64,000 nt of DNA from Polaribacter pectinis. GTDB taxonomy: Bacteria > Bacteroidota > Bacteroidia > Flavobacteriales > Flavobacteriaceae. Both the position numbers and the translations under genes were made by a program. The stretch covers positions 2,325,501 through 2,389,500 of the forward strand of contig NZ_CP060695.1 of assembly GCF_014352875.1 (NCBI RefSeq), in the 5' to 3' direction. The notes beneath the pieces were generated by a model. The model did no database searches. It saw only the letters and a program-made list of their open reading frames with translations, and had not been told where the DNA came from. Positions 19,483 to 49,969 of the stretch are shown piece after piece; within the stretch, counting starts at the first letter, position 1, and the number at the start of each line of letters is the position of its first letter.

Positions 19483-19617
19483 GCCCAACACCGTGTATAA
19501 AAAATTGCTTATTTTTAGCTTAAACAAAGTTAGTTGCATTTTTGCAAACTTCTGAATTTCCTTTGGAAATTCCTCGTTCACAAAACCGCAACTTTCCATA
19601 ACACAACAACGTTGGGC
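19483..19617 (+). repeat. attC-like site 1
   Basis: Left core GCCCAAC, right core GTTGGGC. Inner arms read GTGTATAAAAAATTGC against GCAACTTTCCATAACAC, with an inner GAATTTCC/GGAAATTC hairpin. The end of cassette 1 (CTATGCCCAAC) is complementary to the start of cassette 1, not only to its own right core. Confidence 0.85.
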
Positions 19618-19629
19618 AAAATAAAAAAA

Positions 19630-20430
19630 ATGAAAAGAATCATTTCAATTTTAGTAATAGTTTTTCTAATTTCTTCTTGTCAAAAAGAGAAAAAAATTAC
19701 GAATAAAAAATTAGAACCCGAAGTTATAAAAAATCATTACAAGCCTATATTTTTAAGTTTTAGTCCTGAAATGACAAAATCTGAATTTGAAAAAGAAATT
19801 AGGGAAAAAACGTGGGACAAAACTCTTGAATTAGGAAAATTTATAATTGAACTAAATTCTAAAAAGTATAAGTTTGAAATACAAAAGGGGGAAAATTCAA
19901 TTAATTTATTTTACGGTGAATCTGAAATTTTAAATAGAGAATTTTTGAATCTAAAAAAATCAAAAGTTATAATAGAAAATCAGAAAATATTAATGAATTC
20001 TTTAATTCAACTTTTCAGAAATAAAAAAGAATATATTGAATATAAAATGCCAAAACTGAAAGAAGATAAAAAGGAATTATATTTATTTAGAAATAAAGAA
20101 AGGTCAGTTTTACTTTCTTTCTTAAATTCTGGAAACATTGTAAGAAGTACTAAAGAAGACTTTGAGTATTATAAAAATTTGGAAAACAAGAATGATTCAG
20201 ATTCCTTTTTTGTTTCAGCAATGCAATTTAAGGAGAAAAAACAAACTGAACATTATTTGAATTATATGTGGATAAGTTATTATTCAAATGAAGAAATGGA
20301 TAAATTAATAAGTTCTAAAAAAAGAATTTTAGATAAAAAATCAGAAGAAGAAAAACAAAAGATTAAAAAACTAAAAATGGAAGAAGAAATGAAAAATAAG
20401 AAAATAATTGAAAATCAAAAATTATTATAA
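19630..20430 (+). CDS. Cassette 2: lipoprotein of unknown function
   Basis: 266 residues from the ATG at 19630; the upstream in-frame extension falls inside attC 1. The N-terminus MKRIISILVIVFLISSCQ ends in a lipobox with Cys, so this is an outer-membrane or periplasmic lipoprotein. The body is charged and probably mixed alpha/beta; the last 40 residues are a lysine/glutamate-rich helix (KKSEEEKQKIKKLKMEEEMKNKK). No family recognised. Confidence 0.7.
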   Translation: MKRIISILVIVFLISSCQKEKKITNKKLEPEVIKNHYKPIFLSFSPEMTKSEFEKEIREKTWDKTLELGKFIIELNSKKYKFEIQKGENSINLFYGESEILNREFLNLKKSKVIIENQKILMNSLIQLFRNKKEYIEYKMPKLKEDKKELYLFRNKERSVLLSFLNSGNIVRSTKEDFEYYKNLENKNDSDSFFVSAMQFKEKKQTEHYLNYMWISYYSNEEMDKLISSKKRILDKKSEEEKQKIKKLKMEEEMKNKKIIENQKLL

Positions 20431-20439
20431 TAATACTTT

Positions 20440-20572
20440 GCCCAACACCGTACAAAATTAATTGCTTGCTTTTAGTTTACTTACGAAAATCCTCGCGGAT
20501 TTTCTTTGTCAGTAATTATTTATTAACTTCATTGCTTAACATCGCAACTAATCTTGTACAAACAAGTTAGCA
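20440..20572 (+). repeat. attC-like site 2
   Basis: Left core GCCCAAC matches the start of cassette 2; right core GTTAGCA opens cassette 3, so the two cores of this site do not match each other. Inner arms GTACAAAATTAATTGC and GCAACTAATCTTGTAC differ only by two A/C oppositions. Confidence 0.85.
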
Positions 20573-20594
20573 CCAATACGAGAAAAACCAACGA

Positions 20595-22955
20595 ATGAAA
20601 AATATTACATTGAAAACATTACTATTTCTACTACTCTTTATAAGCCAAATTTCTTTTGGACAAAGACTTACATTGAACGACATTGAAAATATTTGCAACA
20701 AATCAAATTGGGAAAGTGTCAATCAATTTCTAATGAATAAAAATTGGGAATACTATGAATCTGAAAAGGGAAATTCCGAAAAGTATAGCACTATAACTTG
20801 GTCTTATGAAAAAACTTATGGAGATAAGGCTTCTGCTTGGTTTTACCTTTATACTTATGAAGGATTTCCAAATAAATTAAGTTATTCCGTTTTTAATAAG
20901 CCTTCATATTCTGCTATCCAAAATTCACTAAGTTCGAAAGGTTACAAACTTCAAAATAGCGAAATTGAAAACAATGAATTAATTTCTACATATGCGAATA
21001 GCAAATTTATTTTAAAAATAACAACAGAAAAAAGAGAAAAAAATAGTTATTCAAGTTTTGACGAAAGTATTACTGCATACAGATTTTTATTAATAAAAAA
21101 GTCAAGTATTTATGACCCAGATAACGGAAAGAAAGTCGATTACTATTATGGCAACACAAAACAAGCTGAATATACAAAAGTAAATGGAAAAATTAATGGT
21201 GCTTTAAAAGTCTATTATGAAAATGGAAAACTAAAAAAGACAGGTTATTATAAAAATGGTTTAGCAAATGGAAACTTTGTAGAGTATGACGAAGAAGGAA
21301 ATAAAACGTTTGAATATTATCAGAGTAACGATGAAAAAAATGGAAAATTAACAGCTTACGAAGACAATAAAATATCTTATTCAACTCACTACAAAGATGA
21401 TATTCAAAATGGAGAGAGAACCGAATACTATTATGATGACGAAAGCGGAAGACTATACCTAAAAGTAATTGGAACCTTATTGAATGGAGAAAAAGAAGGA
21501 AATTGGAGTTTAATCTTCATAGATAAAGAAAAAGGTGAAAGAATATTAACAAAAACAAATTACTCGAAAGGTTTAAAAAATGGTTATTCACAAGATATAA
21601 AAGGAGACAGCTTAATAATAGCAAACTATACAAACGACAAATTAGACGGCAACTACAAAGTATATTTAGATGTTACGAAAACTGTATTTGGAGGTGTTAT
21701 AGAGACTGATGTTTCAAAATTATTTTTAATATCAGAAGGGAAGTATCAGAATGATAAAAAAACAGATTATTGGAAAGACTATTCCTTAACAAAATCTTTA
21801 AGTAGTGAAGGAAACTATTTGAACGATGAAAAAACTGGCGAATGGAAAAATTACTATTCAAAATATACTAATGACGATAAACCTACACACTATTCAGAAA
21901 AACTGTACTTAATAGAAAATTATAGAAAAGGAAAACTAAATGGATTGACAACTCGATTTTCCTATTTGAATAAAGAGAAATACAAGTGTTCAGAATTAGA
22001 CGAAAACAATAAGCCAAAAGATTCTTGCACTCGAATGGTTTACCAAAAAGTTTTACAAAAATCTAATTATAAAAACAACAAATTGAATGGTGCTTTTGAG
22101 TTAAGAGATTCATTAGACATTTTAGTAGCAAAAGGTAATTTTGCAAATGACCAAAAAATTGGCAAATGGTTTCATCGATATAAAGATGAAGATTATGACG
22201 GTAACCCTTACACATATTTTATGGAAGGCTCTTATGAAGATGATGAACGAGAAGGAGAATGGATATACTATTATAAAAAAGGAGAAATCAACAAAACTAT
22301 AAATTATTCAAACGGAGAATTTGATGGAAAATTTACAGAATGGAATAATCAAAATAAACCAAAAGAAATAAAACGTTTTGATGATGGAAAATTTAGGGAA
22401 CTAATTGTTTATGATAGTATAGGACAACAGCCTGAAAGAAAATTTGAAATTTTTGATGAATATTCAAACAGATATAAATGCAGATTTACCCAATACTTGC
22501 CAAACGGAAAAATTTCTCAAGTTTATTGGTTAAAAAAAGAAAATGAAATAAGTCATAATTGGTTTGAAATTTCATTCCTATTAAAACTAAAAGAAAACGA
22601 CAAGTCAAAAATTTATAAAGACGGAACATATAAGAATTATGACATAAATAATAGACCTCTAATTATTGGAGAATACTTTGAAGAAAGTAAAATTGGAGAT
22701 TGGACTTACTATTACTATCCCCAAAAAGTCAAAATAGAAATCGAATATGACGACAATATAATTATTTCGGAAAAGTACTTGGATCTAAATGATGCTTTAT
22801 TCTCTGGAAAGTTCACTTATATTAACGAAGAAGATAATATTAAAGAAATTCGTAAAATTAAGAATGGTTTAAGAAATGGAAATACGGAATTTATCGACAT
22901 AAATACAGGAAAAAGAATTAAAAAAGTAAAATACAAAGACGGAAAAATAAAATAA
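20595..22955 (+). CDS. Cassette 3: large secreted MORN/YwqK-repeat protein
   Basis: A 786-residue exported protein (signal peptide MKNITLKTLLFLLLFISQISFGQ). After an N-terminal domain of about 165 residues it consists of many degenerate repeats of the type GNTKQAEYTKVNGKINGALK, YYENGKLKKTGYYKNGLANG, FANDQKIGKWFHRYKDED and EDDEREGEWIYYYKKGE, the pattern of MORN/YwqK antitoxin-like repeats. These form long beta-sheet solenoids. Related proteins are annotated as toxin-antitoxin YwqK-family antitoxins in Bacteroidota, but the exported location here makes a cytoplasmic antitoxin role unlikely. At over 2.3 kb it is an unusually long single-gene cassette. Confidence 0.75.
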   Translation: MKNITLKTLLFLLLFISQISFGQRLTLNDIENICNKSNWESVNQFLMNKNWEYYESEKGNSEKYSTITWSYEKTYGDKASAWFYLYTYEGFPNKLSYSVFNKPSYSAIQNSLSSKGYKLQNSEIENNELISTYANSKFILKITTEKREKNSYSSFDESITAYRFLLIKKSSIYDPDNGKKVDYYYGNTKQAEYTKVNGKINGALKVYYENGKLKKTGYYKNGLANGNFVEYDEEGNKTFEYYQSNDEKNGKLTAYEDNKISYSTHYKDDIQNGERTEYYYDDESGRLYLKVIGTLLNGEKEGNWSLIFIDKEKGERILTKTNYSKGLKNGYSQDIKGDSLIIANYTNDKLDGNYKVYLDVTKTVFGGVIETDVSKLFLISEGKYQNDKKTDYWKDYSLTKSLSSEGNYLNDEKTGEWKNYYSKYTNDDKPTHYSEKLYLIENYRKGKLNGLTTRFSYLNKEKYKCSELDENNKPKDSCTRMVYQKVLQKSNYKNNKLNGAFELRDSLDILVAKGNFANDQKIGKWFHRYKDEDYDGNPYTYFMEGSYEDDEREGEWIYYYKKGEINKTINYSNGEFDGKFTEWNNQNKPKEIKRFDDGKFRELIVYDSIGQQPERKFEIFDEYSNRYKCRFTQYLPNGKISQVYWLKKENEISHNWFEISFLLKLKENDKSKIYKDGTYKNYDINNRPLIIGEYFEESKIGDWTYYYYPQKVKIEIEYDDNIIISEKYLDLNDALFSGKFTYINEEDNIKEIRKIKNGLRNGNTEFIDINTGKRIKKVKYKDGKIK

Positions 22956-22962
22956 GTACTGG

Positions 22963-23094
22963 TGCTAACAACGTATATAAAAAATAGCGGTTTAATCGCT
23001 TAATCAAAAGAAAATGAATTAATTAAAGGTATGTTATAAACCGAAAAGTGAGTGCATAAAAATCCGCTACTTTTTATATACAAAACCGTTAGCC
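22963..23094 (+). repeat. attC-like site 3
   Basis: Left core TGCTAAC (extended to GGTGCTAAC) pairs with the start of cassette 3; right core GTTAGCC opens cassette 4. The arms GTATATAAAAAATAGCGG and CCGCTACTTTTTATATAC differ by a single A/C opposition. Confidence 0.85.
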
Positions 23095-23106
23095 ACAAGC
23101 TGAAAA

Positions 23107-23190
23107 ACCAACCGCACAGTCAAGCACATTTCATTTTTTTCGTGCCTCAAAAAATAAAAAGAGCTTGCCTTTTTCCCACGCTCGACACTC
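23107..23190 (+). repeat. Second-family hairpin, 5' copy in cassette 4
   Basis: Imperfect hairpin CAAGC-ACA-TTTCATTTTT against AAAATAAAA-AGA-GCTTG, followed by CCCACGCTCGA. The ACA/AGA internal loop and the downstream CCAACGCTC-like box recur in five other copies in this window, always at the edges of the three large defence cassettes. Confidence 0.6.
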
Positions 23191-23245
23191 TAATTCAGAA
23201 AAAATACTTATATTAGCCAAATATTGTCAAGTCAAAAATAGACTT

Positions 23246-24462: not shown

Positions 24463-24465
24463 ATT

Positions 24466-26072: not shown

Positions 26073-26080
26073 AAGCCAGT

Positions 26081-26277
26081 GGCTAACAACGTGTATAAAA
26101 CATAGCTAATATAGGCTTTTCGAGAGGTTTTTGCTTATTTATAAAGTACGCCAAATTTTTTATTTGGTTATATTTAGAAAAGAAAATTAAACATAAAAAT
26201 AAAAAATTCGGCTCGTGCTAAATCCGAAAAGTTAGTGTTTATTTATACGCTACGTTTCATACACAAGACCGTTACCA
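26081..26277 (+). repeat. attC-like site 4
   Basis: A long version (197 bp). Left core GGCTAAC, right core GTTACCA. Inner arms GTGTATAAAACATAGC and GCTACGTTTCATACAC. The extra length is an inner hairpin with AT-rich arms around 26150-26210. Confidence 0.8.
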
Positions 26278-26989: not shown

Positions 26990-27123
26990 TGGTAACACCG
27001 TATAAAAAAAATTGCTAAATTAGTGCTTAAACAAAGGCAGTTGCATTTTTGCCAACTTCTGAATTTCCTTCGGAAATTCCTCGCTGACAAAACCGCAACT
27101 TTTCTTATACAACAACGTTGGCA
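26990..27123 (+). repeat. attC-like site 5
   Basis: Left core TGGTAAC, extended as GTGTGGTAAC to a perfect 10-bp match with the cassette 5 start; right core GTTGGCA. Inner arms GTATAAAAAAAATTGC and GCAACTTTTCTTATAC. Nearly the same sequence as sites 16 and 18. Confidence 0.85.
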
Positions 27124-27733: not shown

Positions 27734-27867
27734 TGCCAACACCGTATATAATTTATTGCTGGCTTCTCGCCTACTTACGAAAGTCCTCGCGGACTTTCTT
27801 TGTCCGTAATTATTTACTAAATTAGTTGCTTGAAACACGCAACAAACCATATACAACAACGTTGGCA
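27734..27867 (+). repeat. attC-like site 6
   Basis: Left core TGCCAAC, right core GTTGGCA. Arms GTATATAATTTATTGC and GCAACAAACCATATAC: all three differences are A opposite C. Confidence 0.85.
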
Positions 27868-27920
27868 TTAATTTAAAAAAAAATCGTAAATTGTAATTTA
27901 TAATCAAATAAAAAACAGAC

Positions 27921-29378
27921 ATGAAAAAAATTTTACTTTTAGTTATCTATGTTATTGCGTTTCAATTACATGCGCAAACTTACATGTATGGCACAACTTA
28001 TGAAGGAGGTGCGAATGGGCTTGGAATCATTTACAGAGTTGACCAAAACGGCCAAAACTTTCAAAAAGTTTTTGATTTTACAACTAGTACGGGTGGTAAA
28101 CCATTAGGAGGTTTAACACTAGCAAATGGTAAACTTTATGGTTTTACTACAGAAGAAGGGCCTGTTGATAACCCTGGAGCTACCGCTGGGTTCGGATCTT
28201 TTTTTAGTTTTGACCCTCTAACAAATAATTTAACTGTAATTGAATCACTTGATGATAAATCTATAATTGGTAGTGACATTAATCATAGTCCACTTCTTGC
28301 TAATGATGGAAAGCTCTACATTATTAGTGCACAAAGTGAAGTCGGTGTATTTAATAGTATAATATCAACTTATGACCTAGGTACGCAAGCTATTTCTGTT
28401 TTAGCTACCTTAGATAGAACTACTCACGGTCAAGGAAGATCAAAATTAATGCAGGCTAGCAACAACCATTTTTATATTGCTACCTCCAATGGTGGAACAA
28501 ATGATTTTGGAACGATCACTCGTTGGAATACCTCTACAAATCAACTAGAGGAGTTATTTAATTCAACTGGACCTGGTGAATCTCCAAATCACGGTTTTAA
28601 AAATGCACAAAATGGTTTAATAGAAAGTAGCGATGGATATCTTTATGGTACATCTACACAAGGTGGTGATATAACAGATGTAGGTGTGTTATTTAGAATT
28701 AAATTAGATGGTACAGATTACAGTGCATTAGAAGTTTTCAAATCAGGAATACAAGACCAGGGTTTTTATCCATATAGTGGTCTAACAGAATTGAATGGAC
28801 TTTTATATGGTAATACATCAGAAGAAAATATAGATAACGTAAACGCTGGTACACTTTTCACTTATAATTTAACAACTGGTGTTGTTGATTATTTTTACAC
28901 ATTAGATCTTGAAGGTTATACACCTAAAGGAACTATGACATTATCAACTAATAACCGTTTATACTTTACAACTACAGGTGAAAACGGCGGAAATAATGGT
29001 AGCCTAATTGAATACAATCCTATCAATGGTAATGTAACTCAAAGACATTCATTCAACGGAACTAATGGTTCTAAACCATATTATGATGAATTAGCTGTCG
29101 TGGATTTCACTTCCTTGAGTATTGATGAATCTTCTTTACTAGATAATATTGTCAATACATACCCGAATCCATTTCAGGACGTAGTTAATATTAAAGTTGA
29201 GGGGTCACATCTGATTGAAACTATTAAAATATTAGATCTTAAGGGTTCTGAATTGTATATTGACAATTCTAAGTCAAATGAATCTAATGTAAATACATCT
29301 TTTCTGTCATCAGGTGTTTATTTATTGTACATCCAAACAGATTTAGGTAGCACAACAAGAAAGATAATAAAAGAATAA
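27921..29378 (+). CDS. Cassette 7: secreted repeat protein with type IX sorting domain
   Basis: A 485-residue exported protein: signal peptide MKKILLLVIYVIAFQLHAQ, then about 370 residues of beta-propeller-like repeats with the recurring pattern G-x-LYG-x-T-x-x-GG (GLTLANGKLYGFTTEEG, LIESSDGYLYGTSTQGG), the style of choice-of-anchor 'GloVer' repeats. The C-terminal 75 residues (from VNTYPNPFQDVVNIKVEG, with SSGVYLLYIQ) form a Por secretion-system type A sorting domain. It should be passed through the outer membrane by the type IX system and anchored at the surface. It links the cassette pool to a Bacteroidota-specific secretion route. Confidence 0.88.
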   Translation: MKKILLLVIYVIAFQLHAQTYMYGTTYEGGANGLGIIYRVDQNGQNFQKVFDFTTSTGGKPLGGLTLANGKLYGFTTEEGPVDNPGATAGFGSFFSFDPLTNNLTVIESLDDKSIIGSDINHSPLLANDGKLYIISAQSEVGVFNSIISTYDLGTQAISVLATLDRTTHGQGRSKLMQASNNHFYIATSNGGTNDFGTITRWNTSTNQLEELFNSTGPGESPNHGFKNAQNGLIESSDGYLYGTSTQGGDITDVGVLFRIKLDGTDYSALEVFKSGIQDQGFYPYSGLTELNGLLYGNTSEENIDNVNAGTLFTYNLTTGVVDYFYTLDLEGYTPKGTMTLSTNNRLYFTTTGENGGNNGSLIEYNPINGNVTQRHSFNGTNGSKPYYDELAVVDFTSLSIDESSLLDNIVNTYPNPFQDVVNIKVEGSHLIETIKILDLKGSELYIDNSKSNESNVNTSFLSSGVYLLYIQTDLGSTTRKIIKE

Positions 29379-29382
29379 CTAA

Positions 29383-29513
29383 TGCCAACAAGGTATAAAA
29401 GCAATAGCGGTTTGGGTGTAATCTCAAACCGCTATTATATTTAATAGCCAACTTTGCCTACTGAAAGGAAGAGCATCTAATTCCGCTACTGTTCTTATAC
29501 AAGTCCGTTGTAC
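29383..29513 (+). repeat. attC-like site 7
   Basis: Left core TGCCAAC, extended CTAATGCCAAC; right core GTTGTAC. Arms GTATAAAAGCAATAGCGG and CCGCTACTGTTCTTATAC; an inner AATAGCGGTTTG/CAAACCGCTATT hairpin is especially strong. Confidence 0.8.
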
Positions 29514-30104: not shown

Positions 30105-30235
30105 GTACAACACCGTATATAATTTATTGCTAGTTCTAGCCTACTTACGAAAATCCTCGCGGATTTTCTATTCGGTATTTATTTGCTAAATTACTTGCTA
30201 AACCACGCAACAAACCATATACAAACACGTTGGCA
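30105..30235 (+). repeat. attC-like site 8
   Basis: Left core GTACAAC (ATTGTACAAC), right core GTTGGCA. Arms GTATATAATTTATTGC and GCAACAAACCATATAC, identical in form to site 6. Confidence 0.85.
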
Positions 30236-31811: not shown

Positions 31812-31943
31812 TGCCAACACCGTATAAAAAAAATTGCTGGTAAAAGCCAATTTACGAAAGTCCTCGCTGACTTTCTATTTGGCTTTTATTTGCTAACTTT
31901 AGTACCTAAACCACGCAACTTTTCTTATACAAACACGTTACCA
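31812..31943 (+). repeat. attC-like site 9
   Basis: Left core TGCCAAC, right core GTTACCA. Arms GTATAAAAAAAATTGC and GCAACTTTTCTTATAC. The 3' junction AAAATAAAGCCAGTTGCC is shared with cassettes 16 and 18. Confidence 0.85.
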
Positions 31944-31952: not shown

Positions 31953-32750
31953 ATGACCAACATAAATCCGAATAGAATCAAGTTTTATCAATTCCTAAAC
32001 GATGACATTTCATTGGAATTATTTGAAAGTTGGGTTTATAAAAACAAAGAGCTTGAAAATATAATTCAAGAAGACGATTATAATGATTTATTAGCTTTTA
32101 CTTTTAAAAGTAGAGAAACCAAGAATTTTATAAAATCGATTGTTAAGAAACATTTTGACTGGAAAGAATATGAAAAATGGAGAACAATTGAATTACTTAA
32201 AAAGATTAAATCTGGTAAAATTGAAATTGTTTTGGCAACTCGAAAATTAAGAGAATTATATCTTGAACAAGAAGAAAAAATTAAAAGACCATTTCTGACA
32301 ATTGGTCTTGCAATTGGTTATGAAAGCGTACTTGATAATTGTCCAATAGAAACTGAATATAATCAATGGAATTCTGACGTTTTGAAAAAACAACTTGAAC
32401 CTGTACAATGGTATCAAAACCGAATTTTAGAAGACGTTGAACAAGAACTTAACGAATTACTAAACCCTGAAATAAAAACTATTGACCTTGGGAAAATTGT
32501 GAGTATTAAAGATTTTCACGACATTTTTTCGGAAAGACTTTACTTCCCTGAATTTTATGGAAATAATTGGGATGCTTTTTGGGATTCGATAATTGGAATC
32601 GTTGAAATGCCAAAAAAATTGACCTTAACCAATTGGGAAAAATTCGAAAAAACATTTAAAAAAGATTCGAAAATTTTGAAAGAAATTATAAAGGATTATA
32701 ACAATCAAAATACTGAAAATAAAAAAATAACTGTTGGTAACACCGTATAA
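31953..32750 (+). CDS. Cassette 10: barstar-like protein with unknown N-terminal domain
   Basis: 265 residues from the ATG at 31953; the upstream extension lies in attC 9. The C-terminal 85 residues (IVSIKDFHDIFSERLYFPEFYGNNWDAFWDSIIGIVEMPKKLTL, with the lines before and after) are a good barstar domain, the fold that blocks barnase-type ribonucleases. The first 180 residues are unrecognised. The reading frame runs into attC 10 and uses its TAA as stop (end VGNTV). No nuclease gene is nearby, so this is probably a stand-alone immunity gene against ribonuclease toxins of competitors. That is inference. Confidence 0.8.
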   Translation: MTNINPNRIKFYQFLNDDISLELFESWVYKNKELENIIQEDDYNDLLAFTFKSRETKNFIKSIVKKHFDWKEYEKWRTIELLKKIKSGKIEIVLATRKLRELYLEQEEKIKRPFLTIGLAIGYESVLDNCPIETEYNQWNSDVLKKQLEPVQWYQNRILEDVEQELNELLNPEIKTIDLGKIVSIKDFHDIFSERLYFPEFYGNNWDAFWDSIIGIVEMPKKLTLTNWEKFEKTFKKDSKILKEIIKDYNNQNTENKKITVGNTV

Positions 32751-32867
32751 ACTTTATTGCTGGTTTTGGCTCACTTGGGAAATTCCTTCGGAATTTCGCC
32801 GTTCGTGTTTTATTTATTAAATTCACTGCTTAAACAACGCAACAAAGCTTATACAACAACGTTGCCA
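32735..32867 (+). repeat. attC-like site 10
   Basis: Left core TGGTAAC, right core GTTGCCA. Arms GTATAAACTTTATTGC and GCAACAAAGCTTATAC. Overlaps the last codons of the cassette 10 gene. Confidence 0.85.
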
Positions 32868-33338: not shown

Positions 33339-33472
33339 TGGCAACAACGTGTATAAAAAATTGCGTAGTTTAGTGCTTAACCAAAGGCAGTTGCATTTTT
33401 GTTACGTCTGAATTTCCTTCGGAAATTCCTCGCACACAAAACCGCAACTATTCATACACAAAACCGTTGTGA
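33339..33472 (+). repeat. attC-like site 11
   Basis: Left core TGGCAAC (CTAATGGCAAC), right core GTTGTGA. Arms GTGTATAAAAAATTGC and GCAACTATTCATACAC. Confidence 0.85.
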
Positions 33473-33484: not shown

Positions 33485-34252
33485 ATGAACTTCGTAAAAG
33501 ACGACATACCGAAATGGATTAAACCATATGCTGAATTAGGACCAGGATTTGAGCTTGACGTCAAAATCAATCACGACAACTTTTTTTGGTATTTACAAGC
33601 TATGTGTAGTCCGCCAAATTTTGAGAAATATTTGATTTTATTACATCCTTTTTGGATAAACTACAAAGCAAAAGAACTTAATAAAAAAGTTAACTTTTTA
33701 AGAGATAAAGATGTCAACGAAGAAGAATTTGAAAGGCTTACTTATTCGGAATTCTTTAAAAAATATGACGAGGAATTCAATTTAAAAACAGCGAAAAAAG
33801 TAAAAGAAAAAATTGCAGACAAGTATTTAAGAAAAAATAATGACTGGCCAAAATACATTTGGTATCCAGCCGAGGGAGAAGCTGAATTATCTGACTTGGA
33901 ATTTATCACTCAATCACTGATTAAAAAATATGGAGACTTGGAATCTGACTTTTATTATGTTTTAATGAAAACTAAAGAGATTTACGAAGACCAAATATTG
34001 CGTGGAAATTTATCTGAATTACCAAAAGTCTGGGACTTTGAACCCGAAATTAGAGATAGCCCAAGTGCAATCTATCCGACAACAGGAAATGATTGGTTTA
34101 TAATTACAGATTACGACTGTCCAATGACATTTATTGGTGGAAAATCGGAATTGATTGACGAAATGCTAAAAAACAAACCTAAAGGAATTGACCTTTACGA
34201 AATAATACCGAAATACGAACAGAAAAAAGCCAACTCACAACAACGTGTATAA
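33485..34252 (+). CDS. Cassette 12: hypothetical protein
   Basis: A 255-residue soluble protein starting 13 bp after the core. No signal peptide or membrane segment. Visible blocks are FFWYLQAMCSPPNFEKYLILLHPFW, DWPKYIWYPAEGEAELSDLEFI and DWFIITDYDCPMTFIGGKSELIDEML. The last resembles the end of several contact-dependent immunity families, but no named family can be assigned. The frame continues into attC 12 and ends there (QQRV). Confidence 0.65.
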   Translation: MNFVKDDIPKWIKPYAELGPGFELDVKINHDNFFWYLQAMCSPPNFEKYLILLHPFWINYKAKELNKKVNFLRDKDVNEEEFERLTYSEFFKKYDEEFNLKTAKKVKEKIADKYLRKNNDWPKYIWYPAEGEAELSDLEFITQSLIKKYGDLESDFYYVLMKTKEIYEDQILRGNLSELPKVWDFEPEIRDSPSAIYPTTGNDWFIITDYDCPMTFIGGKSELIDEMLKNKPKGIDLYEIIPKYEQKKANSQQRV

Positions 34253-34365
34253 TTAATTGCTTGGTCTGTGTGTACTCGGAAAATCCTACGGATTTTCCTC
34301 TGGTTCGTTTTCTTTTAGTAACTTAGTTCTCGCCAACGCAACTAATCATACACAACACGTTGTGC
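34235..34365 (+). repeat. attC-like site 12
   Basis: Left core TCACAAC, right core GTTGTGC. Arms GTGTATAATTAATTGC and GCAACTAATCATACAC. Confidence 0.85.
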
Positions 34366-34464: not shown

Positions 34465-35310
34465 TTAATCAAAAAAAGGTCTAACATTATTTTTTTGAAT
34501 GTAATCTTCAATAATTCCGACTTCGCTAATATCGACAAACTCTAGAAATTCAGTATCTCTAATATGTTCCCATAGCAAATGGTTTTTGTTTACTCTCTTT
34601 TGAGGTTCTCTTCCTAAAACAAAATATTTTCCTCTAGAGTCACCTTCTAATTCTATAGCTTTTGTTAAAGACACAAATCTAGTAACATCATTTTCAAGAT
34701 AATAATGACTTTTTTCAAAGTCTATTGTTTGTCCAGCTACAGGTATTCCATTTACACCTATAAAATCTATATCTATTGGTGCAAATAAATTTTCAAAATC
34801 ATCAGAGGTCAATGTCTTTTCAATGTTAACTTTCTCTTGAATTTTAGGAAATAATTGCTTTTTGACTATAGAATGAACATTAAATTCAGGTTCAACATTC
34901 GTGTCATTAGAAAATTTAAAAATATATTTTTCAAAAATTCTTTTAAATGTATTATCATTTAAATCTACATCAATCGTTTTTGGTTCAGAAAACTGAATAA
35001 TATTATTTGAATATCTAGAAAGATAAACTAAATAACTCTCATTAATCCAATCATTCTTAAAATCTCTTTTAATAAATAATTTATTAGAGTCAACTATATT
35101 ATCAGAAACAATCTCTTTATCAATTGACTTAAGGTAACTTTTAACTAAACCATATCTCTCACTATTTAAAATACCTTTAAAAGCAGAAAGCTTGTCCGAA
35201 GAGAATTTAAAATAATTTTTAGAACCATTAGACACAAGAACGCCTATACTAACTCTTTCATTAAGAGTAGTATTCAAATTAACGTAAAGTATTGAATAAA
35301 TAGTTTTCAT
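34465..35310 (-). CDS. Cassette 13: DUF3037-like partner of HipA-like kinase
   Basis: A 281-residue protein on the strand opposite to the array. It opens YSILYVNLNTTLNERVSIGVLVSN and continues with a helical body; this opening is typical of DUF3037-type proteins, which are found next to HipA-like kinases. It begins 1 bp after the stop of the kinase gene, so the pair is one operon. Reverse orientation means it needs its own promoter and cannot rely on a promoter at attI; the 120 bp between 36134 and the attC, AT-rich, may contain it. Confidence 0.7.
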   Translation of the reverse strand: MKTIYSILYVNLNTTLNERVSIGVLVSNGSKNYFKFSSDKLSAFKGILNSERYGLVKSYLKSIDKEIVSDNIVDSNKLFIKRDFKNDWINESYLVYLSRYSNNIIQFSEPKTIDVDLNDNTFKRIFEKYIFKFSNDTNVEPEFNVHSIVKKQLFPKIQEKVNIEKTLTSDDFENLFAPIDIDFIGVNGIPVAGQTIDFEKSHYYLENDVTRFVSLTKAIELEGDSRGKYFVLGREPQKRVNKNHLLWEHIRDTEFLEFVDISEVGIIEDYIQKNNVRPFFD

Positions 35311-35311
35311 T

Positions 35312-36133
35312 TTAATTAGCTACAAAAGATTGTATAAACTCTCTAAAGTTCGATTCACATTGATTTTTCCAATCATCAGAAAATAAATTGTCAATAATTC
35401 TTTTCTTAATTAAGACTTTGTCGATATTCCAAGAGTCTGGTACTAAATCTAAAATATCGTCTAATTTATTTTCACATTCTTTGGTGCAAATGTATAACAT
35501 TTCAACCAAGTTATTCACAATGTCTGTTAATTTCCTGTCTTTTCCAAATAAAATTTTTGCTATATCAGTTTTAATTATTGATTCATCCTCAGTCAAATCT
35601 GTAATTCCATAATCAAGGAATGACATATTAAAAATATTTACGTGGTCGATTGCATAAAAAAAACTCATATTATCAGGAGAAACGGATAAAAGCAAATTGA
35701 AGTTGTTATGATTCCTATCTTCATTTGCTGTCCAAATATCAAATAGTGCTATTTTTAAAAAATCCGTTTTATCAGATATTTTATTTCTAAAAGATTTTTC
35801 CTGAAACATTGACACCATAGTATGATCTAATTCTTTAGAAGTTTCTAGATATAAAGATCCAAAACATTGCTTTTCAAACCAACCTATCTGTAATTGCGGA
35901 AATTTTTCATTTGGAATATGTTCTCTTTTAACATTAATAAGACAAGTTTCGGGTGTTTTAATTCCCCATATTTTAGCAAATTCAGATGCTATCAACTCGT
36001 TAAACAAATATTTAGGAAACCTATCATACTTACATACCCAATCTCTGAAATCATTGCAAGTTACAAGTAGCGGACTACTTCCTTGTGTGTCAAAAACTTT
36101 ATGAACATCTTCAATTGTATGAAGTAATTGCAT
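35312..36133 (-). CDS. Cassette 13: HipA-like kinase
   Basis: A 273-residue protein with features of the HipA-like kinase family: FDIWTANEDRNHNNFNLLLS (catalytic loop with D and N) near residue 130, and FFYAIDHVNIFN (metal-binding D) near 160. It lacks the full-length HipA N-terminal domain and is shorter than HipA (about 440 residues). HipA kinases phosphorylate a tRNA synthetase and slow growth; the short forms with a DUF3037 partner are less studied. As a pair this resembles a toxin-antitoxin module and may stabilise the array. Confidence 0.75.
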   Translation of the reverse strand: MQLLHTIEDVHKVFDTQGSSPLLVTCNDFRDWVCKYDRFPKYLFNELIASEFAKIWGIKTPETCLINVKREHIPNEKFPQLQIGWFEKQCFGSLYLETSKELDHTMVSMFQEKSFRNKISDKTDFLKIALFDIWTANEDRNHNNFNLLLSVSPDNMSFFYAIDHVNIFNMSFLDYGITDLTEDESIIKTDIAKILFGKDRKLTDIVNNLVEMLYICTKECENKLDDILDLVPDSWNIDKVLIKKRIIDNLFSDDWKNQCESNFREFIQSFVAN

Positions 36134-36186: not shown

Positions 36187-36319
36187 GCACAACAACGTAT
36201 ATAAAAAATAGCTAAATAATCGCCTAACTTAATTTGTATTACTTATTTAATAACGTTATTTTAGTCGGAAAAGTATGTGAGTACTTACACGCTACTTTTC
36301 ATATACAAAACCGTATGCC
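36187..36319 (+). repeat. attC-like site 13 (damaged right core)
   Basis: Left core GCACAAC (TTTGCACAAC). The right core reads GTATGCC instead of GTT-type. The end of cassette 14 is GGCATACAAC, so the expected core was GTTGTATGCC and three bases (TTG) seem to have been lost here. Confidence 0.75.
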
Positions 36320-37058: not shown

Positions 37059-37194
37059 GGCATACAACACCGTATAAACAAAATTGCTGGTTTTAGCTCA
37101 CTTGCGAAAGTCCTCACGGACTTTCTTGGTTCGTAATTATTTACTAACTTTACTGCTAAATCATCGCAACTTTGCTTATACAATCACGTTGTGC
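37059..37194 (+). repeat. attC-like site 14
   Basis: Left core ATACAAC (GGCATACAAC), right core GTTGTGC. Arms GTATAAACAAAATTGC and GCAACTTTGCTTATAC. Confidence 0.85.
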
Positions 37195-40085: not shown

Positions 40086-40281
40086 GCACAACAATGTATA
40101 TAAAAAATAGGGCGGAAAGTGCTAAAACGAAGGCTTGTGTTTATTTGCAAAGTCCGCCATATTTTTAATTTGTATTTTAGAAAAACGAAAAGATAAAAAT
40201 AAAATGAAAAATATGGCTAAGTTCAAAATCGAAAGTAAGTGCTTACCAACTGCCCTACTTTTCATATACTAAACGTTGGCA
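40086..40281 (+). repeat. attC-like site 15
   Basis: Long version (196 bp). Left core GCACAAC, right core GTTGGCA. Arms GTATATAAAAAATAGGG and CCCTACTTTTCATATAC. A one-base shift in the extended core pairing sets it apart from the others. Confidence 0.8.
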
Positions 40282-40307: not shown

Positions 40308-40850
40308 ATGACGAAATTAAAAAGTTACATAATATTAATTCTGATTTTGATAAGTGTTTCTTGTAGTCAGAAAAAATCAAACAAAACTGATTTAGAAAAT
40401 TATATTGAGTCAATTAAAGAAAAAAATTCATTAACTGAAAATCCTTTAATTCTTATTGACGGTTACATCAGAGAATATGAATTAATGAATACCGAACAAA
40501 TTTTATTATTAGAAGACGATATTTTGAGCGTAAAATATTTTGAAAAGGAAAAATCTTTAAAAATATTTGGAGAAAGTGGGAAAAACGGAGCAATATTTAT
40601 ATCAACATTAAATCAAATAATAGCGGTTGATGATATTAATCCTGAAAAGAGAATTATTTATATTTTGAATGGAAATATAATATCAAAAAAGGATTTTGAG
40701 GAAATAAACGAAAACAAAATAGTAGAAATTGAAACTTTAAAAGAAAAAAAAATAATAGAGAGATTTTCAACAGAGAACTATGAAGAATTGATTTATGTTA
40801 TTACGAAACAAGAAACTGAAAAAATAAAGCCAGTTGCCAACACCGTATAA
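40308..40850 (+). CDS. Cassette 16: lipoprotein (copy 1 of duplicated cassette)
   Basis: A 180-residue lipoprotein (MTKLKSYIILILILISVSCSQ) of unknown function. The mature part has NPLILIDGYIREYELMNTEQILLLEDDILSVKYFEKEKSLKIFG and SGKNGAIFISTLNQI, which recalls the TonB-dependent-receptor plug-like repeats GKNGAI(F/V)(I/L)(S/T). A plug-like fold is possible. The frame ends inside attC 16 at its TAA (end PVANTV). An identical protein is encoded at 42462-43004. Confidence 0.75.
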   Translation: MTKLKSYIILILILISVSCSQKKSNKTDLENYIESIKEKNSLTENPLILIDGYIREYELMNTEQILLLEDDILSVKYFEKEKSLKIFGESGKNGAIFISTLNQIIAVDDINPEKRIIYILNGNIISKKDFEEINENKIVEIETLKEKKIIERFSTENYEELIYVITKQETEKIKPVANTV

Positions 40851-40968
40851 AAAAAATTGCTAAATTAGTGCTTAACCAAAGGCAGTTGCATTTTTGCCAA
40901 CTTCTGAATTTCCTTCGGAAATTCCTCGCTGACAAAACCGCAACTTTTCTTATACAACAACGTTGGCA
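40835..40968 (+). repeat. attC-like site 16
   Basis: Left core TGCCAAC, right core GTTGGCA. Arms GTATAAAAAAAATTGC and GCAACTTTTCTTATAC. Identical to site 18 up to the crossover region, after which the right cores differ. Confidence 0.85.
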
Positions 40969-42300: not shown

Positions 42301-42435
42301 TGCCAACACCGTATAAACTTTATTGCTAGCTTTTTGCCTACTTGCGAAAAACCTCACGGATTTTCTTTGTTTGTGTTTTATTTACTAACTTTAGTGTTTG
42401 TAACTCGCAACAAAGCTTATACAAACACGTTGGCA
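42301..42435 (+). repeat. attC-like site 17
   Basis: Left core TGCCAAC (TATTGCCAAC), right core GTTGGCA. Arms GTATAAACTTTATTGC and GCAACAAAGCTTATAC. Confidence 0.85.
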
Positions 42436-42461: not shown

Positions 42462-43004
42462 ATGACGAAATTAAAAAGTTACATAATATTAATTCTGATT
42501 TTGATAAGTGTTTCTTGTAGTCAGAAAAAATCAAACAAAACTGATTTAGAAAATTATATTGAGTCAATTAAAGAAAAAAATTCATTAACTGAAAATCCTT
42601 TAATTCTTATTGACGGTTACATCAGAGAATATGAATTAATGAATACCGAACAAATTTTATTATTAGAAGACGATATTTTGAGCGTAAAATATTTTGAAAA
42701 GGAAAAATCTTTAAAAATATTTGGAGAAAGTGGGAAAAACGGAGCAATATTTATATCAACATTAAATCAAATAATAGCGGTTGATGATATTAATCCTGAA
42801 AAGAGAATTATTTATATTTTGAATGGAAATATAATATCAAAAAAGGATTTTGAGGAAATAAACGAAAACAAAATAGTAGAAATTGAAACTTTAAAAGAAA
42901 AAAAAATAATAGAGAGATTTTCAACAGAGAACTATGAAGAATTGATTTATGTTATTACGAAACAAGAAACTGAAAAAATAAAGCCAGTTGCCAACACCGT
43001 ATAA
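42462..43004 (+). CDS. Cassette 18: lipoprotein (copy 2 of duplicated cassette)
   Basis: Encodes the same 180 residues as 40308-40850, and its leader and attC are also the same, so the cassette is an exact duplicate with one three-gene cassette (number 17) between the copies. Lipoprotein with lipobox VSC; mature part with the SGKNGAIFIS block. Absence of differences means the duplication is recent. Sequence identity starts at the core and ends in the next core, as expected for cassette recombination rather than random tandem duplication. Confidence 0.75.
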   Translation: MTKLKSYIILILILISVSCSQKKSNKTDLENYIESIKEKNSLTENPLILIDGYIREYELMNTEQILLLEDDILSVKYFEKEKSLKIFGESGKNGAIFISTLNQIIAVDDINPEKRIIYILNGNIISKKDFEEINENKIVEIETLKEKKIIERFSTENYEELIYVITKQETEKIKPVANTV

Positions 43005-43122
43005 AAAAAATTGCTAAATTAGTGCTTAACCAAAGGCAGTTGCATTTTTGCCAACTTCTGAATTTCCTTCGGAAATTCCTCGCTGACAAAACCGCAACTT
43101 TTCTTATACAACAACGTTGGGT
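42989..43122 (+). repeat. attC-like site 18
   Basis: Left core TGCCAAC, right core GTTGGGT. Same as site 16 through GTTGG, then different, which places the crossover at or just after the G of the core. Confidence 0.85.
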
Positions 43123-43551: not shown

Positions 43552-43685
43552 ACCCAACACCGTGTAAAAAAAATTGCTGGTAAAAGCCTACTTACGAAAA
43601 TCCTCTCGGATTTTCTTGGTTCGTGTTTTATTTACTAACTTTATTGCTTAAACCACGCAACTTTTCCTACACAACAACGTTACCC
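43552..43685 (+). repeat. attC-like site 19
   Basis: Left core ACCCAAC, right core GTTACCC. Arms GTGTAAAAAAAATTGC and GCAACTTTTCCTACAC, three A/C oppositions. Confidence 0.85.
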
Positions 43686-43697
43686 AACATTTGAGAA

Positions 43698-44153
43698 ATG
43701 AAACCTGGAATTGAAATAACAGACACTGAATTAAAATTTACGGAGTTTTCCTCGAAAGAAATTGGATTAGCGAAATATTGCAAATCATTTAGCTTAAATC
43801 TGAATGAAATAAAATTAATCGGAATTAGTCCGAGACTTGCTTTAGACGATGAATCGATTTTTTTACTCATCATTGACAAATCAGAAAAAATATATCCTAT
43901 TCCTGACAAGATTATTGGAACAAAAGGATTGGAGAAATTTGAAAAGCATTTTGATTTAAGTTCTATCCAAAGTGAATGGGAAAAATTTGAATACGATGAC
44001 CATCATGGAAAAATGGATAAAGTCGTTTATCCGAAAGAAAAATATTGGAATGACTTGTTTGAAAAAGATTGGAAATTGAGAATTAGAACTCTTTATAGTT
44101 GGGCTCAACCGAAATCATTTTATGGAAATCTGAATAAAAAAAACGTTGGGTAA
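43698..44153 (+). CDS. Cassette 20: hypothetical protein
   Basis: A 151-residue soluble protein. The first 85 residues look like a two-sheet domain (IEITDTELKFTEFSSKEIG, LNEIKLIGISPRLALDDESIFLLIIDKSEKIYPIPD), the remainder is helical with many aromatic residues (WNDLFEKDWKLRIRTLYSWAQPKSFYGNL). No family recognised; its size and style fit immunity-type proteins. The frame runs to the last base before the core of attC 20 (end NVG). Confidence 0.6.
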   Translation: MKPGIEITDTELKFTEFSSKEIGLAKYCKSFSLNLNEIKLIGISPRLALDDESIFLLIIDKSEKIYPIPDKIIGTKGLEKFEKHFDLSSIQSEWEKFEYDDHHGKMDKVVYPKEKYWNDLFEKDWKLRIRTLYSWAQPKSFYGNLNKKNVG

Positions 44154-44279
44154 CAACGTATAAAAATAATTGCTAATTTAGGCTTAAACAAAGGTAGTTG
44201 CGTATTTGCTACATCTGAATTTCCTTCGGAAATTCCTCGCACGCAAACACGCAACTATTCTTATACAAGACCGTTGTGC
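44148..44279 (+). repeat. attC-like site 20
   Basis: Left core GGGTAAC (CGTTGGGTAAC), right core GTTGTGC. Arms GTATAAAAATAATTGC and GCAACTATTCTTATAC. Confidence 0.85.
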
Positions 44280-44327
44280 ATAATGCGGAAATTCGTGCAA
44301 AGTATTTAAATTAGTGCTAAAAAAGCC

Positions 44328-44412: not shown

Positions 44413-44437
44413 AAAACGAAATAAAACGAAAAAAAGA

Positions 44438-47161: not shown

Positions 47162-47966
47162 GACTTTTTATAACTTCATATTAAAAATTTTAGAAGAGGG
47201 AAAAATTAACGCTTCCTCTATTAGTGCGTCTGTTAAAAAAAGTGGCGACTTTAAAACTTTACTTAATGGTAATTTTATTTCCTATTCGCAAGCTGTTACA
47301 GGTGGTGGAAGTTATATTTTAAACGATAAAGAAAATTTGCAACTATTTTTCAGAAGCAAGTTTCCTAAAGAACTTCAAGATAGTTATTCTGCTGTTGGCA
47401 ATATTGGAACATATAGAAATACAAAAACAGGAAAAAGAAAGAGTCAAAATATAATCTTAGTAAGAGGTTTTAAAAATATTAAGATAAATTCTGAAATTGT
47501 AGATTTAGAAAAATCAACTAATTTATTTGGTGCTTTTAGTGCTCAAGTAAATAATTTAGAAACAGATAAAATTTGTATTGTAGAAAATTTAGATTCATTT
47601 TTGTTATGTGAAAAAGTAATTGATAATGATTTTGTGTTTATCCATACTTATGGTGGTTTAGGAAAATCCATTTTAAATAAGTTAAAAACAAAAAAAGTTC
47701 TTATTTTTCCTGATTACGACTACAAAGGATTGCAAAACTATTTGATGGTTAAAAAAGTCTTTCCAAATGCAGAGATATTTATTCCATCGAATTACGAAAT
47801 ACTTTTTAATACATTTTCAAGAACAATTAAAACAAAACAAGGAAGAGAGCAAAACCCAAGTAAAGAAGTAAAAGAATCGACTGACGAGAATGTTGTAAAA
47901 ATCAGGACAGACATTTATAAAACTAAACGATTTTTAGAACAACAAGCATTATTTGTAAAAATATAA
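47151..47966 (+). CDS. Cassette 21: TOPRIM-like nuclease subunit (JetD-like)
   Basis: 271 residues from the ATG at 47151, overlapping the ATPase stop. The C-terminal part contains ICIVENLDSFLLCEK (acidic TOPRIM glutamate) and VLIFPDYDYKGLQNYLMVKKVFP (the D-x-D pair), in the order and spacing of JetD/DUF2220-type TOPRIM domains. The N-terminal part is a short winged-helix-like region. In Wadjet systems this subunit cuts the DNA that the ATPase complex has captured. It is shorter than known JetD proteins. Confidence 0.7.
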   Translation: MQNKTFYNFILKILEEGKINASSISASVKKSGDFKTLLNGNFISYSQAVTGGGSYILNDKENLQLFFRSKFPKELQDSYSAVGNIGTYRNTKTGKRKSQNIILVRGFKNIKINSEIVDLEKSTNLFGAFSAQVNNLETDKICIVENLDSFLLCEKVIDNDFVFIHTYGGLGKSILNKLKTKKVLIFPDYDYKGLQNYLMVKKVFPNAEIFIPSNYEILFNTFSRTIKTKQGREQNPSKEVKESTDENVVKIRTDIYKTKRFLEQQALFVKI

Positions 47967-47968
47967 AG

Positions 47969-49192
47969 ATGATTAAGTTATCAGGTAAATACATATTAAA
48001 ATTTCTGCAAAATCATTATGAATTTGTACAGGAAGCTTTTAACTCTAGTAAGCCAGACTTTATTATAGATAGCGATATTCTTGAAAAATTAATTGAAGAA
48101 TATAATATCAGTAATGACCCAAAGATTTCAATAACAAAGCTAATTGATGTTAAGTTTTGCAGACAGCTTCCAACAAAAGACTATAAATTAGATATTCACT
48201 ATACTTCTTTTTTACAATTTATTTTTGATGATTTCACGCTTGATTTACCTCAAACTTTAAAAGATAGATACAGGACTATTTTTGAGCTATTTACAGAATT
48301 AAAAACAACAGAAAAGCCTAACAAAATAATTGTTCTTATTCAAAGTATCATAACTGTAATTGATGTATTTCTAAATGATATTCATAGACAAACCCAAAGA
48401 CTATTAAGCGACACAGAATCATTAAAAGTAAATGCGGATGAATATTCTGATTTATCAAAAAGATTAGAAAAAGCAGTTTTTTGGATTGACGAATACATTG
48501 AACCACTTAATAAGATTTTAGAAAAAGGACATCCTGAATCATTTTATTCTGCTCTTGTTGAAATCCAAAAATATACCAGCGAAAAACAATATGTTGCCAG
48601 CAGTTTTAAGCTAAAGAGAGAATATAAAAAACTTTATGGTTCTGTAATTTACGCTCGCACAGAATTAGACCATAATTTACAAAAACTAACAAGAGAATTA
48701 AGACCACTATTAGATAGAATTAAAAGCGATTCTATCATTTTAAGTGGATTTTATCATTTTGTGGAAAATGTAGATTATCCAGAAAATTATATTATACCAT
48801 TACCTAAACCTATTAAGAAAATCAAAGGAAGTGCTATATTCAAAGGATTTCATAGTGAAGCAGAATTTTTTGTAGACCAATTCATTTACAAAACTTCTGA
48901 CATTTATTATGAAGAGCAGATTGAAGAACAAGAATGGCTTCCAGATTCAACATATTTTAAAGAACAAATATTAAAAGAAGATAAAATTGAAGATTTTTAT
49001 TTGTGGTGTTTTGATGCTTTAAAAAAACATACTGATGAGATTACATTATCGAAATATTTTTCTATTACCAATCTTTTATTAGAAGAAGATTTGGTGGCTG
49101 AATACAGAGAAGACGATAGAATTACAATTGAGTTAAAAGACGCTTCTATAAAAATACCTAAAGTACGAGTTTATGAAAGAGTATCCAAGTGA
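47969..49192 (+). CDS. Cassette 21: kleisin-like subunit (JetA/MukF-like)
   Basis: A 407-residue helical protein that follows the TOPRIM gene by 2 bp. It has a winged-helix-like N-terminus (LSGKYILKFLQNHYEFVQEAF), a long helical centre with DIHRQTQRLLSDTESLK and RTELDHNLQKLTRELRPLLDRIK, and an acidic C-terminal domain that again looks like a winged helix (TLSKYFSITNLLLEEDLVAEYREDDRI). This is what is expected of the kleisin that bridges the SMC heads. Assignment rests on size, order and these features. Confidence 0.65.
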   Translation: MIKLSGKYILKFLQNHYEFVQEAFNSSKPDFIIDSDILEKLIEEYNISNDPKISITKLIDVKFCRQLPTKDYKLDIHYTSFLQFIFDDFTLDLPQTLKDRYRTIFELFTELKTTEKPNKIIVLIQSIITVIDVFLNDIHRQTQRLLSDTESLKVNADEYSDLSKRLEKAVFWIDEYIEPLNKILEKGHPESFYSALVEIQKYTSEKQYVASSFKLKREYKKLYGSVIYARTELDHNLQKLTRELRPLLDRIKSDSIILSGFYHFVENVDYPENYIIPLPKPIKKIKGSAIFKGFHSEAEFFVDQFIYKTSDIYYEEQIEEQEWLPDSTYFKEQILKEDKIEDFYLWCFDALKKHTDEITLSKYFSITNLLLEEDLVAEYREDDRITIELKDASIKIPKVRVYERVSK

Positions 49193-49706
49193 GCATAAAA
49201 AAATAGTTAATGAATTATTAGACGGAAAATTCATTATTTCACCAAGTCCATTGTTTTACACATTACAGGAACTTGAAGATGAATACACAGAGTTTTTCGA
49301 AAAATCATTTAATTTCAAATTAAATATTGAAGCGGATTTTAGTTACTTATCTTCTAATGAAGTAAACGAAAAAAGAACACGTGATTTTACTTTATTTCTA
49401 GCCATACTTTCAAGAGAATTAGATTATTCTGGCAAGAATTTTCGAGATAAAATAGAAGTAGGTTCGTTTGATATTAGCGAAACTGAAGAATTATTAAGAC
49501 AGTCTAGTAAGTGGGAGATTTTAGAAAAAACTACAGTTTCCGAATTTGATAAATTTATTAAGACTTGGAGAAGTAAGAATTTAATTGTAATTGATGGTAA
49601 TAAATTCAAATTTACAAAAGCTGTAAAGCTATTTTTTACTTTTGCTATGGAAATTGCAGAAGAGAAACTTAAAGAAAAAACAGAAGATGAAAAAGCCAAG
49701 GCATAA
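49173..49706 (+). CDS. Cassette 21: small subunit (JetB/MukE-like)
   Basis: A 177-residue protein overlapping the previous gene by 20 bp. It opens with KKIVNELLDGKFIISPSPLFYTLQELEDEYTEFFEKSFNFKLNIEADFSYL and ends with a winged-helix-like part and a lysine/glutamate-rich helix. Size and order fit JetB/MukE, the kleisin-associated subunit. It completes a module of four overlapping or near-overlapping genes that is entirely contained between one pair of core sites, making this the largest cassette (5.6 kb). Confidence 0.65.
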   Translation: MKEYPSEHKKIVNELLDGKFIISPSPLFYTLQELEDEYTEFFEKSFNFKLNIEADFSYLSSNEVNEKRTRDFTLFLAILSRELDYSGKNFRDKIEVGSFDISETEELLRQSSKWEILEKTTVSEFDKFIKTWRSKNLIVIDGNKFKFTKAVKLFFTFAMEIAEEKLKEKTEDEKAKA

Positions 49707-49786
49707 ACCCATACACATTTACAATTCGCATCAGCCAACTCTACACCAAAAATTGCAAAAGAGTATGTCTTGCCAACGCTCAATCC
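49706..49786 (+). repeat. Second-family hairpin, 3' copy in cassette 21
   Basis: Hairpin CATAC-ACA-TTTACAATT against AATTGCAAA-AGA-GTATG (49710-49766), then TCTTGCCAACGCTCAATCCG. A diverged copy of those at 25967 and 39973. Confidence 0.6.
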
Positions 49787-49835
49787 GAACTAAATAATAA
49801 ACATCGGAAAACAAGCTGAATGAAAAAAGCACTAT

Positions 49836-49969
49836 GCACAACAGCGTATAAACTTTATTGCTGGCTTTTTGCTTACTTTCGAAAGCCCTCCAAGACTTTC
49901 TTGGTCAGTAATTATTTACTAAATTAGTTGCTTGAAACACGCAACAAAGCTTATACAATCACGTTGCCA
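49836..49969 (+). repeat. attC-like site 21 (last in array)
   Basis: Left core GCACAAC (TATGCACAAC), right core GTTGCCA. Arms GTATAAACTTTATTGC and GCAACAAAGCTTATAC. No further cassette follows; the core after it has no partner downstream. Confidence 0.85.

Follow-up and report, generated by a model that had tools for sequence, protein, structure and literature searches.

Strand choice in integrons has been ascribed to extrahelical bases that are read by a domain found only in IntI integrases (PubMed Central articles PMC3053210 and PMC4792948, in the passages cited here). In those passages PMC4792948 treats the joint origin of this additional domain (I2) and the extrahelical bases as a chicken-and-egg problem, and lists XerCD and CTXphi as having neither. 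The insert is reported to be not fully conserved in an 'integron-like' subgroup (PMC8138268, in the part cited), and enzymes of such a kind have therefore been seen before. Bacteroidota are listed among the phyla with integrons (cited portion of PMC8618304), and for Bacteroidetes/Chlorobi the cited section of the IntegronFinder 2.0 paper (PMC9024848) names complete integrons in Chlorobi, Ignavibacteriae and Salinibacter ruber. Here we describe a locus of Polaribacter pectinis, a member of the Flavobacteriaceae, that lies within positions 2325501-2389500 of a 3.47-Mb single-contig genome; 'the window' below means this whole stretch of 64,000 nucleotides (nt), and coordinates are those of the window. 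A gene for a XerA/IntI-like tyrosine recombinase of 385 residues (P0001, 17639-18796, + strand) is followed, in the same direction, by 21 palindromic attC-like sites (19483-49969). On balance we think it probable that this is an integron-like system, served by an integrase without the insert, in which T·G wobbles and not extrahelical bases mark the strand that recombines. In the text covered by a search of open-licence PubMed Central papers, preprints aside, we found no account of attC sites with a wobble mark, or of integron integrases lacking the insert, in Flavobacteriaceae.

With the canonical integron, whether class 1 or the other IntI arrays of Bacteroidota, the locus shares an attI followed by cassettes, R'' and R' matched for each cassette, imperfect palindromes with asymmetric spacers, and a GTT crossover. 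Window sites open with NNNNAAC (R'') and close with GTTNNNN (R'), and the four variable letters of R' recur, complemented, in the R'' of the following site, i.e. within one cassette; counted by eye, the match holds in 19 of 20 neighbouring sites, the exception coming after the site at 36187, which has a broken 3' core. The putative attI (18804-18836, + strand) has its crossover triplet GTT at 18830-18832, 33 nt past the integrase stop codon, with a core that matches the R'' of the first site, and the cassette array (18830-49969, + strand) runs from this triplet to the end of the last site. Across the fetched loci, 179 of the 249 neighbouring pairs had R' and R'' identical at four of four letters; the figure was 28 of 248 for the two ends of a single site and 6.8% for shuffled sequence. 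An attI core matching that of the first site was present in 26 of 48 loci, where dealing R'' at random would give 3.7, and 22 of these 26 matches lay 25-50 nt from the integrase. The same genome holds a second array (G000:C1:2233254-2272908; loci L069 and L070) with an integrase 98% identical to that of the window. Over the stretch from integrase to attI the two arrays differ at 30 of 1230 bases, and identity stops exactly after CCAGTT; they also share a cassette stretch of 1652 bp at 99.9% identity (27859-29510, + strand; GTT core at 27861), where identity starts two letters before GTT and stops at GTT plus one base, with differing flanks. Because both sets of breakpoints fall at GTT, cassettes have moved by crossovers in GTT, as in integrons, and judged by its sequence organisation the region is an integron-like array.

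The locus departs from the canonical integron in its enzyme, its layout and its sites: the integrase is extended at its N terminus and is without the insert specific to IntI, its gene points into the array with attI behind the gene, T·G wobbles at +10 to +12 and at +15 (offsets counted from the AAC of R'') replace bulges at +9 and +16/17, and the bottom strand is thermodynamically favoured. The protein matches Phage_integrase (131 bits) together with a SAM-like N-terminal domain, and the extension comprises ~90 residues; against the IntI profile TIGR02249 it reaches 206 bits, under the cut-off of 265, and the insert region is unmatched. I2 is absent from the window integrase, in which the linker measures 57 residues compared with 99 in IntI1, and 59 of 61 array-associated relatives have linkers of 57-62 residues, the two others being 58 (L154) and 57 (L085) when counted by eye. 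The catalytic fold is of the Xer type without an insert, as seen in a structure model of moderate quality (predicted local distance difference test 78.7, predicted template modelling score 0.48, tyrosine region low) that served for the fold only, and in a fold search that barely covered residues 1-86. In a tree rooted by midpoint the enzyme groups beside IntI, and other Xer-like proteins of the genome (L171 and L172) form a separate group with L128 at support 100/98, two of these three Xer-like rows being on long branches. Xer recombinases share with the window integrase the lack of an I2-like insert, and hairpin integration of CTXphi shares a stem without extrahelical bases (PMC4792948, as cited); in contrast to both, the window enzyme is dedicated, encoded beside its own attI and cassette array. 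Among the matches listed, 119 relatives have 73-83% identity, and the named ones belong to Polaribacter save for one Tenacibaculum. A third relative in the genome (1905267-1906364 of the contig) contains five internal stop codons.

An initial annotation, made from the sequence alone, had counted 21 sites and proposed that A faces C at two fixed positions of their arms. The count stands, with 20 sites picked up by our detector and the one at 36187 missed. Inner arms read GTATAA-A-NNNN-A-TTGC on the left and, reverse complemented, GTATAA-G-NNNN-G-TTGC on the right. We write A/C for an A of the left arm facing a C of the right arm on the top strand, which is T·G on the bottom strand and A/G when the right arm is reverse complemented; arm positions 7, 8 and 12 correspond to +10, +11 and +15. 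Position 12 is A/C in 21 of 21 window sites and position 7 in 20 of 21, as had been proposed, the site at 22963 having an ordinary A·T pair at position 7; the site at 19483, which has an extra right-arm base, keeps both fixed pairs when aligned from the inner end. The two sites named as the only exceptions, at 29383 and 33339, also keep both pairs and are exceptional in one added mismatch each (G facing T at position 9 and A facing A at position 10), and the site at 22963 had gone unlisted.

When the inner-arm motif was searched with positions 7 and 12 left as N, the whole genome yielded 21 sites and 135 of 299 genomes of the family contained sites, with no match to a reversed-pattern control in any of the rows shown; in a sample of the phylum, 14 of 395 genomes had sites and the control matched in one other genome. 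With control matches at or near zero, the asymmetric sites are not chance occurrences. Orientation of the sites of close relatives (near sites) was set by the spacers alone (left 2-4, right 5-7), avoiding selection by the feature itself. Across 218 distinct equal-arm sites from 67 loci, a table that leaves out 49 sites with unequal arms, position 12 was A/C in 215 and A facing A in 3, position 7 was A/C in 200 and position 8 in 70. The same sites hold 497 wobbles on the bottom strand, 6 on the top strand and 29 other mismatches, and the directionality that the initial annotation had set beforehand as its refutation test is therefore borne out; with positions 7, 8 and 12 excluded, wobbles number 12 on the bottom and 5 on the top. 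Addition of named relatives gave 297 equal-arm sites among 362 distinct ones, with A/C at +15 in 289 (A facing A in 8), at +10 in 268 and at +11 in 105. Over 87 distinct arm pairs, each of the four Watson-Crick types occurs at +12 and also at +13, and +15 is A/C in 83 of the 87, so that, as read from these alignments, the hairpin is conserved as a structure and contains a conserved non-Watson-Crick pair. In one array (L093, genome G040), 20 of 22 sites share a single arm pair with an extra right-arm base (16 versus 17 nt) in which the mark before TTGC is kept; a bulge of the right arm combined with the mark thus exists as a subtype.

Distant loci, with integrases ~35-46% identical, represent six other families, with a Weeksellaceae plasmid counted among them, and a further genus group within the window's own family. 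A detector for their sites returned 58 matches, and 5 when the sequence had been shuffled once; 49 matches in 15 loci were kept and 9 excluded, one of the latter (L160, 6850) having the opposite direction by its spacers, yet lying on the strand opposite to the other sites of its locus. Many stems in this set are quite different from those of the window and G+C-rich (e.g. GCGGTTTGGCAAAAGTGGCG / GCGGCTTGGCGAAGGTGGCG). Even so, 45 of the 49 sites had A/C at +15, namely all 18 from the other genus group and 27 of 31 from the six other families (3/3, 5/6, 7/7, 4/5, 5/5 and 3/5). Three of the four exceptions have A/C one step off (+14 or +16, by eye) and the fourth has C facing C. Outside +15 there was no directional bias, with 35 bottom-strand and 34 top-strand wobbles, and the conserved feature is therefore the bottom-strand T·G at +15 and not an overall surplus of wobbles on that strand. 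The initial annotation had put forward a nearly continuous bottom-strand helix as the strand-choosing device, which agrees with the directional near sites but is insufficient for distant ones that are constant only at +15; a position-specific mark explains both. At +6, 27 of the 49 distant sites have T facing G when read on the top strand, giving an A·C mismatch on the bottom strand near the core. On a plasmid of Chryseobacterium sp. SNU WT5 (NZ_CP041688, L130), two sites of such an array flank a group II intron reverse transcriptase (21738-23054).

Canonical IntI arrays served as a matched control, with one detector applied to the near, distant and canonical sets. Canonical IntI genes, defined as TIGR02249 above cut-off, occurred in 70 of 247 genomes of the phylum, and the window's family was absent from the 71 of these 247 with any TIGR02249 match. 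Twenty canonical loci were fetched, 11 with mated sites and 9 without; the run orients palindromes detected on both strands and keeps 56 of 118 IntI sites, 367 of 666 near sites and 49 of 99 distant sites, two of the 11 canonical loci supplying 27 of the 56 sites and a few rows looking spurious. In the left arm of the 56 canonical sites an extrahelical base was found at +8 to +10 in 50, at +15 to +18 in 45 and at both in 42, and 44 of the 46 inner bulges are A, which corresponds to a bottom-strand T. Of three class 1 sites on three plasmid loci, one had bulges at +9, +13 and +17, another a bulge at +16, and the third bulges at +9 and +16. The A/C mark at +14 to +16 was found in 0 of 56 canonical sites, compared with 334 of 367 near sites (42 loci) and 43 of 49 distant sites (13 loci), together 377 of 416 in insert-less arrays. 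Conversely, none of the 367 near sites and none of the 49 distant ones had both classical bulges, in keeping with the earlier proposal of a device different from extrahelical bases. The correlation of enzyme with site extends to a single genome (G314) in which both enzymes occur and each is accompanied by sites of its own type: four bulged sites at L196 and three A/C sites at L150. The distance from the +15 mark to the inner bulge of classical sites (+16/17) is one or two bases, and the two share their arm and their bottom-strand base, T; by our own mapping, from base and order, that bulge corresponds to T12'' of PMC3053210 as described in the passage cited.

Energies computed with DNA parameters made the bottom strand the more stable in 347 of 362 distinct near sites, by a mean of 3.09 kcal/mol; the initial annotation had predicted this preference but had denied the top strand a comparable fold, and the top strand also folds (mean -17.5 versus -20.6 kcal/mol). 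Arms alone favoured the bottom strand in 359 of 362 sites (1.96 kcal/mol) and the central part alone in 305 of 362 (1.02 kcal/mol), and the distant set did so in 42 of 49. In the three-set control the margin of bottom over top was 2.95 kcal/mol for near sites (345/367) and 2.11 kcal/mol for distant sites (41/49), with no energy bias at canonical IntI sites (mean -0.12 kcal/mol; 27 versus 26). Near sites have a second strand asymmetry of their own, a GNA/GNNA loop on the bottom strand: in the longest central hairpin it closes 236 of 306, the reverse arrangement 2 and other loops 68, and the distinct stem-loop combinations number 33, 2 and 49, respectively. GNA and GNNA loops are unusually stable in DNA. 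The strand bias, its absence at IntI sites and this extra loop class would all suit a purely thermodynamic explanation, in which any bottom-strand wobble is enough and the bottom strand merely extrudes or stays folded more often. We nevertheless hold that explanation to be unlikely, as the pair is fixed in both place and letter (C on the left and A on the right were unseen at +15 in 297 near and 49 distant sites) and the distant set wobbles equally on either strand elsewhere, with the opposite kind at +6 in 27 of its 49 sites. The initial annotation was partly supported, right in direction and too strong or incomplete in parts.

Letter specificity is also what would be expected if the A and the G were simply letters of the L'' and L' half-sites by which an enzyme on duplex DNA tells the two sides apart, with no strand choice through folding, and Xer-type enzymes normally act on duplex sites. 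This seems improbable to us, since the surrounding stem letters covary across sites and families, which duplex reading does not need. Much less probable again is selection against hairpins in cassette messenger RNA, whereby A·C mismatches would weaken structure in the top-strand transcript: open reading frames of the array longer than 120 residues are all on the + strand except at 34465-36133, so transcripts do carry the mismatched arms, but mismatches would then be expected anywhere and in either order, whereas they occur at one fixed place in differing stems, and canonical IntI sites have none at +14 to +16 (gene direction in those arrays lying outside the comparison). Repeated C-to-T change on one exposed hairpin strand, where deamination of bottom-strand C in the left arm would indeed leave A/C, should strike many positions in both kinds of array and is hardly credible for a mark confined mainly to +10 to +12 and +15 in one kind.

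The reading we favour, a wobble-marked integron-like system, would work as follows. The insert-less integrase would insert circular cassettes at the attI behind its own gene, with the folded bottom strand of each attC-like site as its substrate. T·G wobbles, paired within the stem on the arm of the classical bulges, include one fixed at +15 and usually one or more at +10 to +12; the +15 wobble may be a position-specific mark for the recombinase, standing in for the extrahelical T. The wobbles would also stabilise the bottom hairpin by 2-3 kcal/mol as a second contribution to the distinction between strands, to which bottom-strand GNA/GNNA apical loops may add in sites of the Flavobacteriaceae type. 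The +15 pair is most likely a strand mark, which would select the strand in recombination; we infer that the window integrase acts on these sites, that the bottom strand would be the one used and that the T·G pair would be the feature read.

Several observations count against this interpretation. The role of the integrase rests on adjacency, attI and co-occurrence, and 22 of 48 loci are without an attI match. Sites without the A/C mark at +14 to +16 number 33 of 367 in the near set and 6 of 49 in the distant set, and many of them look like chance palindromes or alignment slips. A true variant recurs at L082, L085 and L126, in which the A at +15 faces A rather than C. The right arm of 113 near sites has an additional base before +19, so that some of the family has a bulge of another kind. 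Relatedness among the sites of an array and among the arrays of a lineage means that the counts are not independent events. The folding energies describe isolated strands only, and the GNA/GNNA loop bias is absent from the distant set (4 versus 2 of 20 hairpins) and from IntI sites (0 of 12).

Published recombination data bear on the same question from a Polaribacter phage, P12002L. In the results cited from PMC9892861, recombination of P12002L_attC2 with attI1 by IntI1 succeeded for the bottom strand, not significantly different from attC-aadA7 among the successful sites, and the top strand yielded no recombinant, which counts for our interpretation. Those results tell against it in that P12002L_attC1 went unrecombined and the enzyme tested was IntI1. 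The phage cluster is described there as attC sites without an integrase, and the cited text mentions neither the wobble nor an insert-less integrase. We found eight site matches in the phage genome (NC_028924), five of which (32488, 32794, 38876, 39119 and 39512) share the +15 mark of the window array, four of them also with +10; a sixth (40758) has the +15 mark under one alternative placement. Should attC2 be one of the marked matches, reaction of a wobble-marked site through its bottom strand alone is already known, albeit with a recombinase of classical type.

All 21 sites lie on the + strand. Site 1 (19483-19617), with the extra right-arm base, is followed by site 2 (20440-20572), site 3 (22963-23094), which lacks the position-7 mismatch, site 4 (26081-26277), site 5 (26990-27123), site 6 (27734-27867) and site 7 (29383-29513), with its single opposite-direction mismatch at position 9. 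Sites 8 (30105-30235), 9 (31812-31943) and 10 (32735-32867) precede site 11 (33339-33472), with the extra mismatch at position 10, and site 12 (34235-34365). Site 13 (36187-36319), missed by the detector, has the 3' core GTATGCC in place of GTTNNNN, mismatched to the R'' of the next site, and the two genes before it (34465-36133) oppose the array. Site 14 (37062-37194) leads to site 15 (40086-40281), which has arms of 18 nt, and then to sites 16 (40835-40968), 17 (42301-42435), 18 (42989-43122), 19 (43552-43685), 20 (44148-44279) and 21 (49836-49969), the last of the array. Cassette genes between 23165 and 49192 encode, among others, a helix-turn-helix protein, an Eco57I-like methylase, one HepT/Abi-like and one thioredoxin-domain protein, and one AAA/PHP protein. 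Upstream of the integrase, 10859-17330 contains genes for a reverse transcriptase, a 260-residue protein, an AAA/UvrD-type helicase and a second tyrosine recombinase (15629-17218, minus strand), beside which ~17281-17330 resembles the 3' end of a transfer RNA gene, although ARAGORN reports no transfer RNA there; this segment is possibly an integrated element.

More tentatively, and with somewhat less confidence than doubt, we suggest that the window integrase belongs to an insert-less sister lineage of integron integrases, which either never had I2 or lost it, with arrays across Bacteroidota and a fixed T·G wobble for strand choice. If so, this lineage would be either the living intermediate sought in the cited discussion of PMC4792948, on whether the I2 domain or the bulged attC came first, or an independent second solution. 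Searches that require an insert-bearing IntI would probably fail to report such arrays as complete; against the few groups named with complete integrons in PMC9024848 stand the 135 of 299 genomes of a single family that contain sites of this kind. Many arrays without the bulges and without the IntI-only domain, but with another mark near the same place, make the link between bulges and domain testable from the other side and bear on the origin of single-strand cassette recombination.

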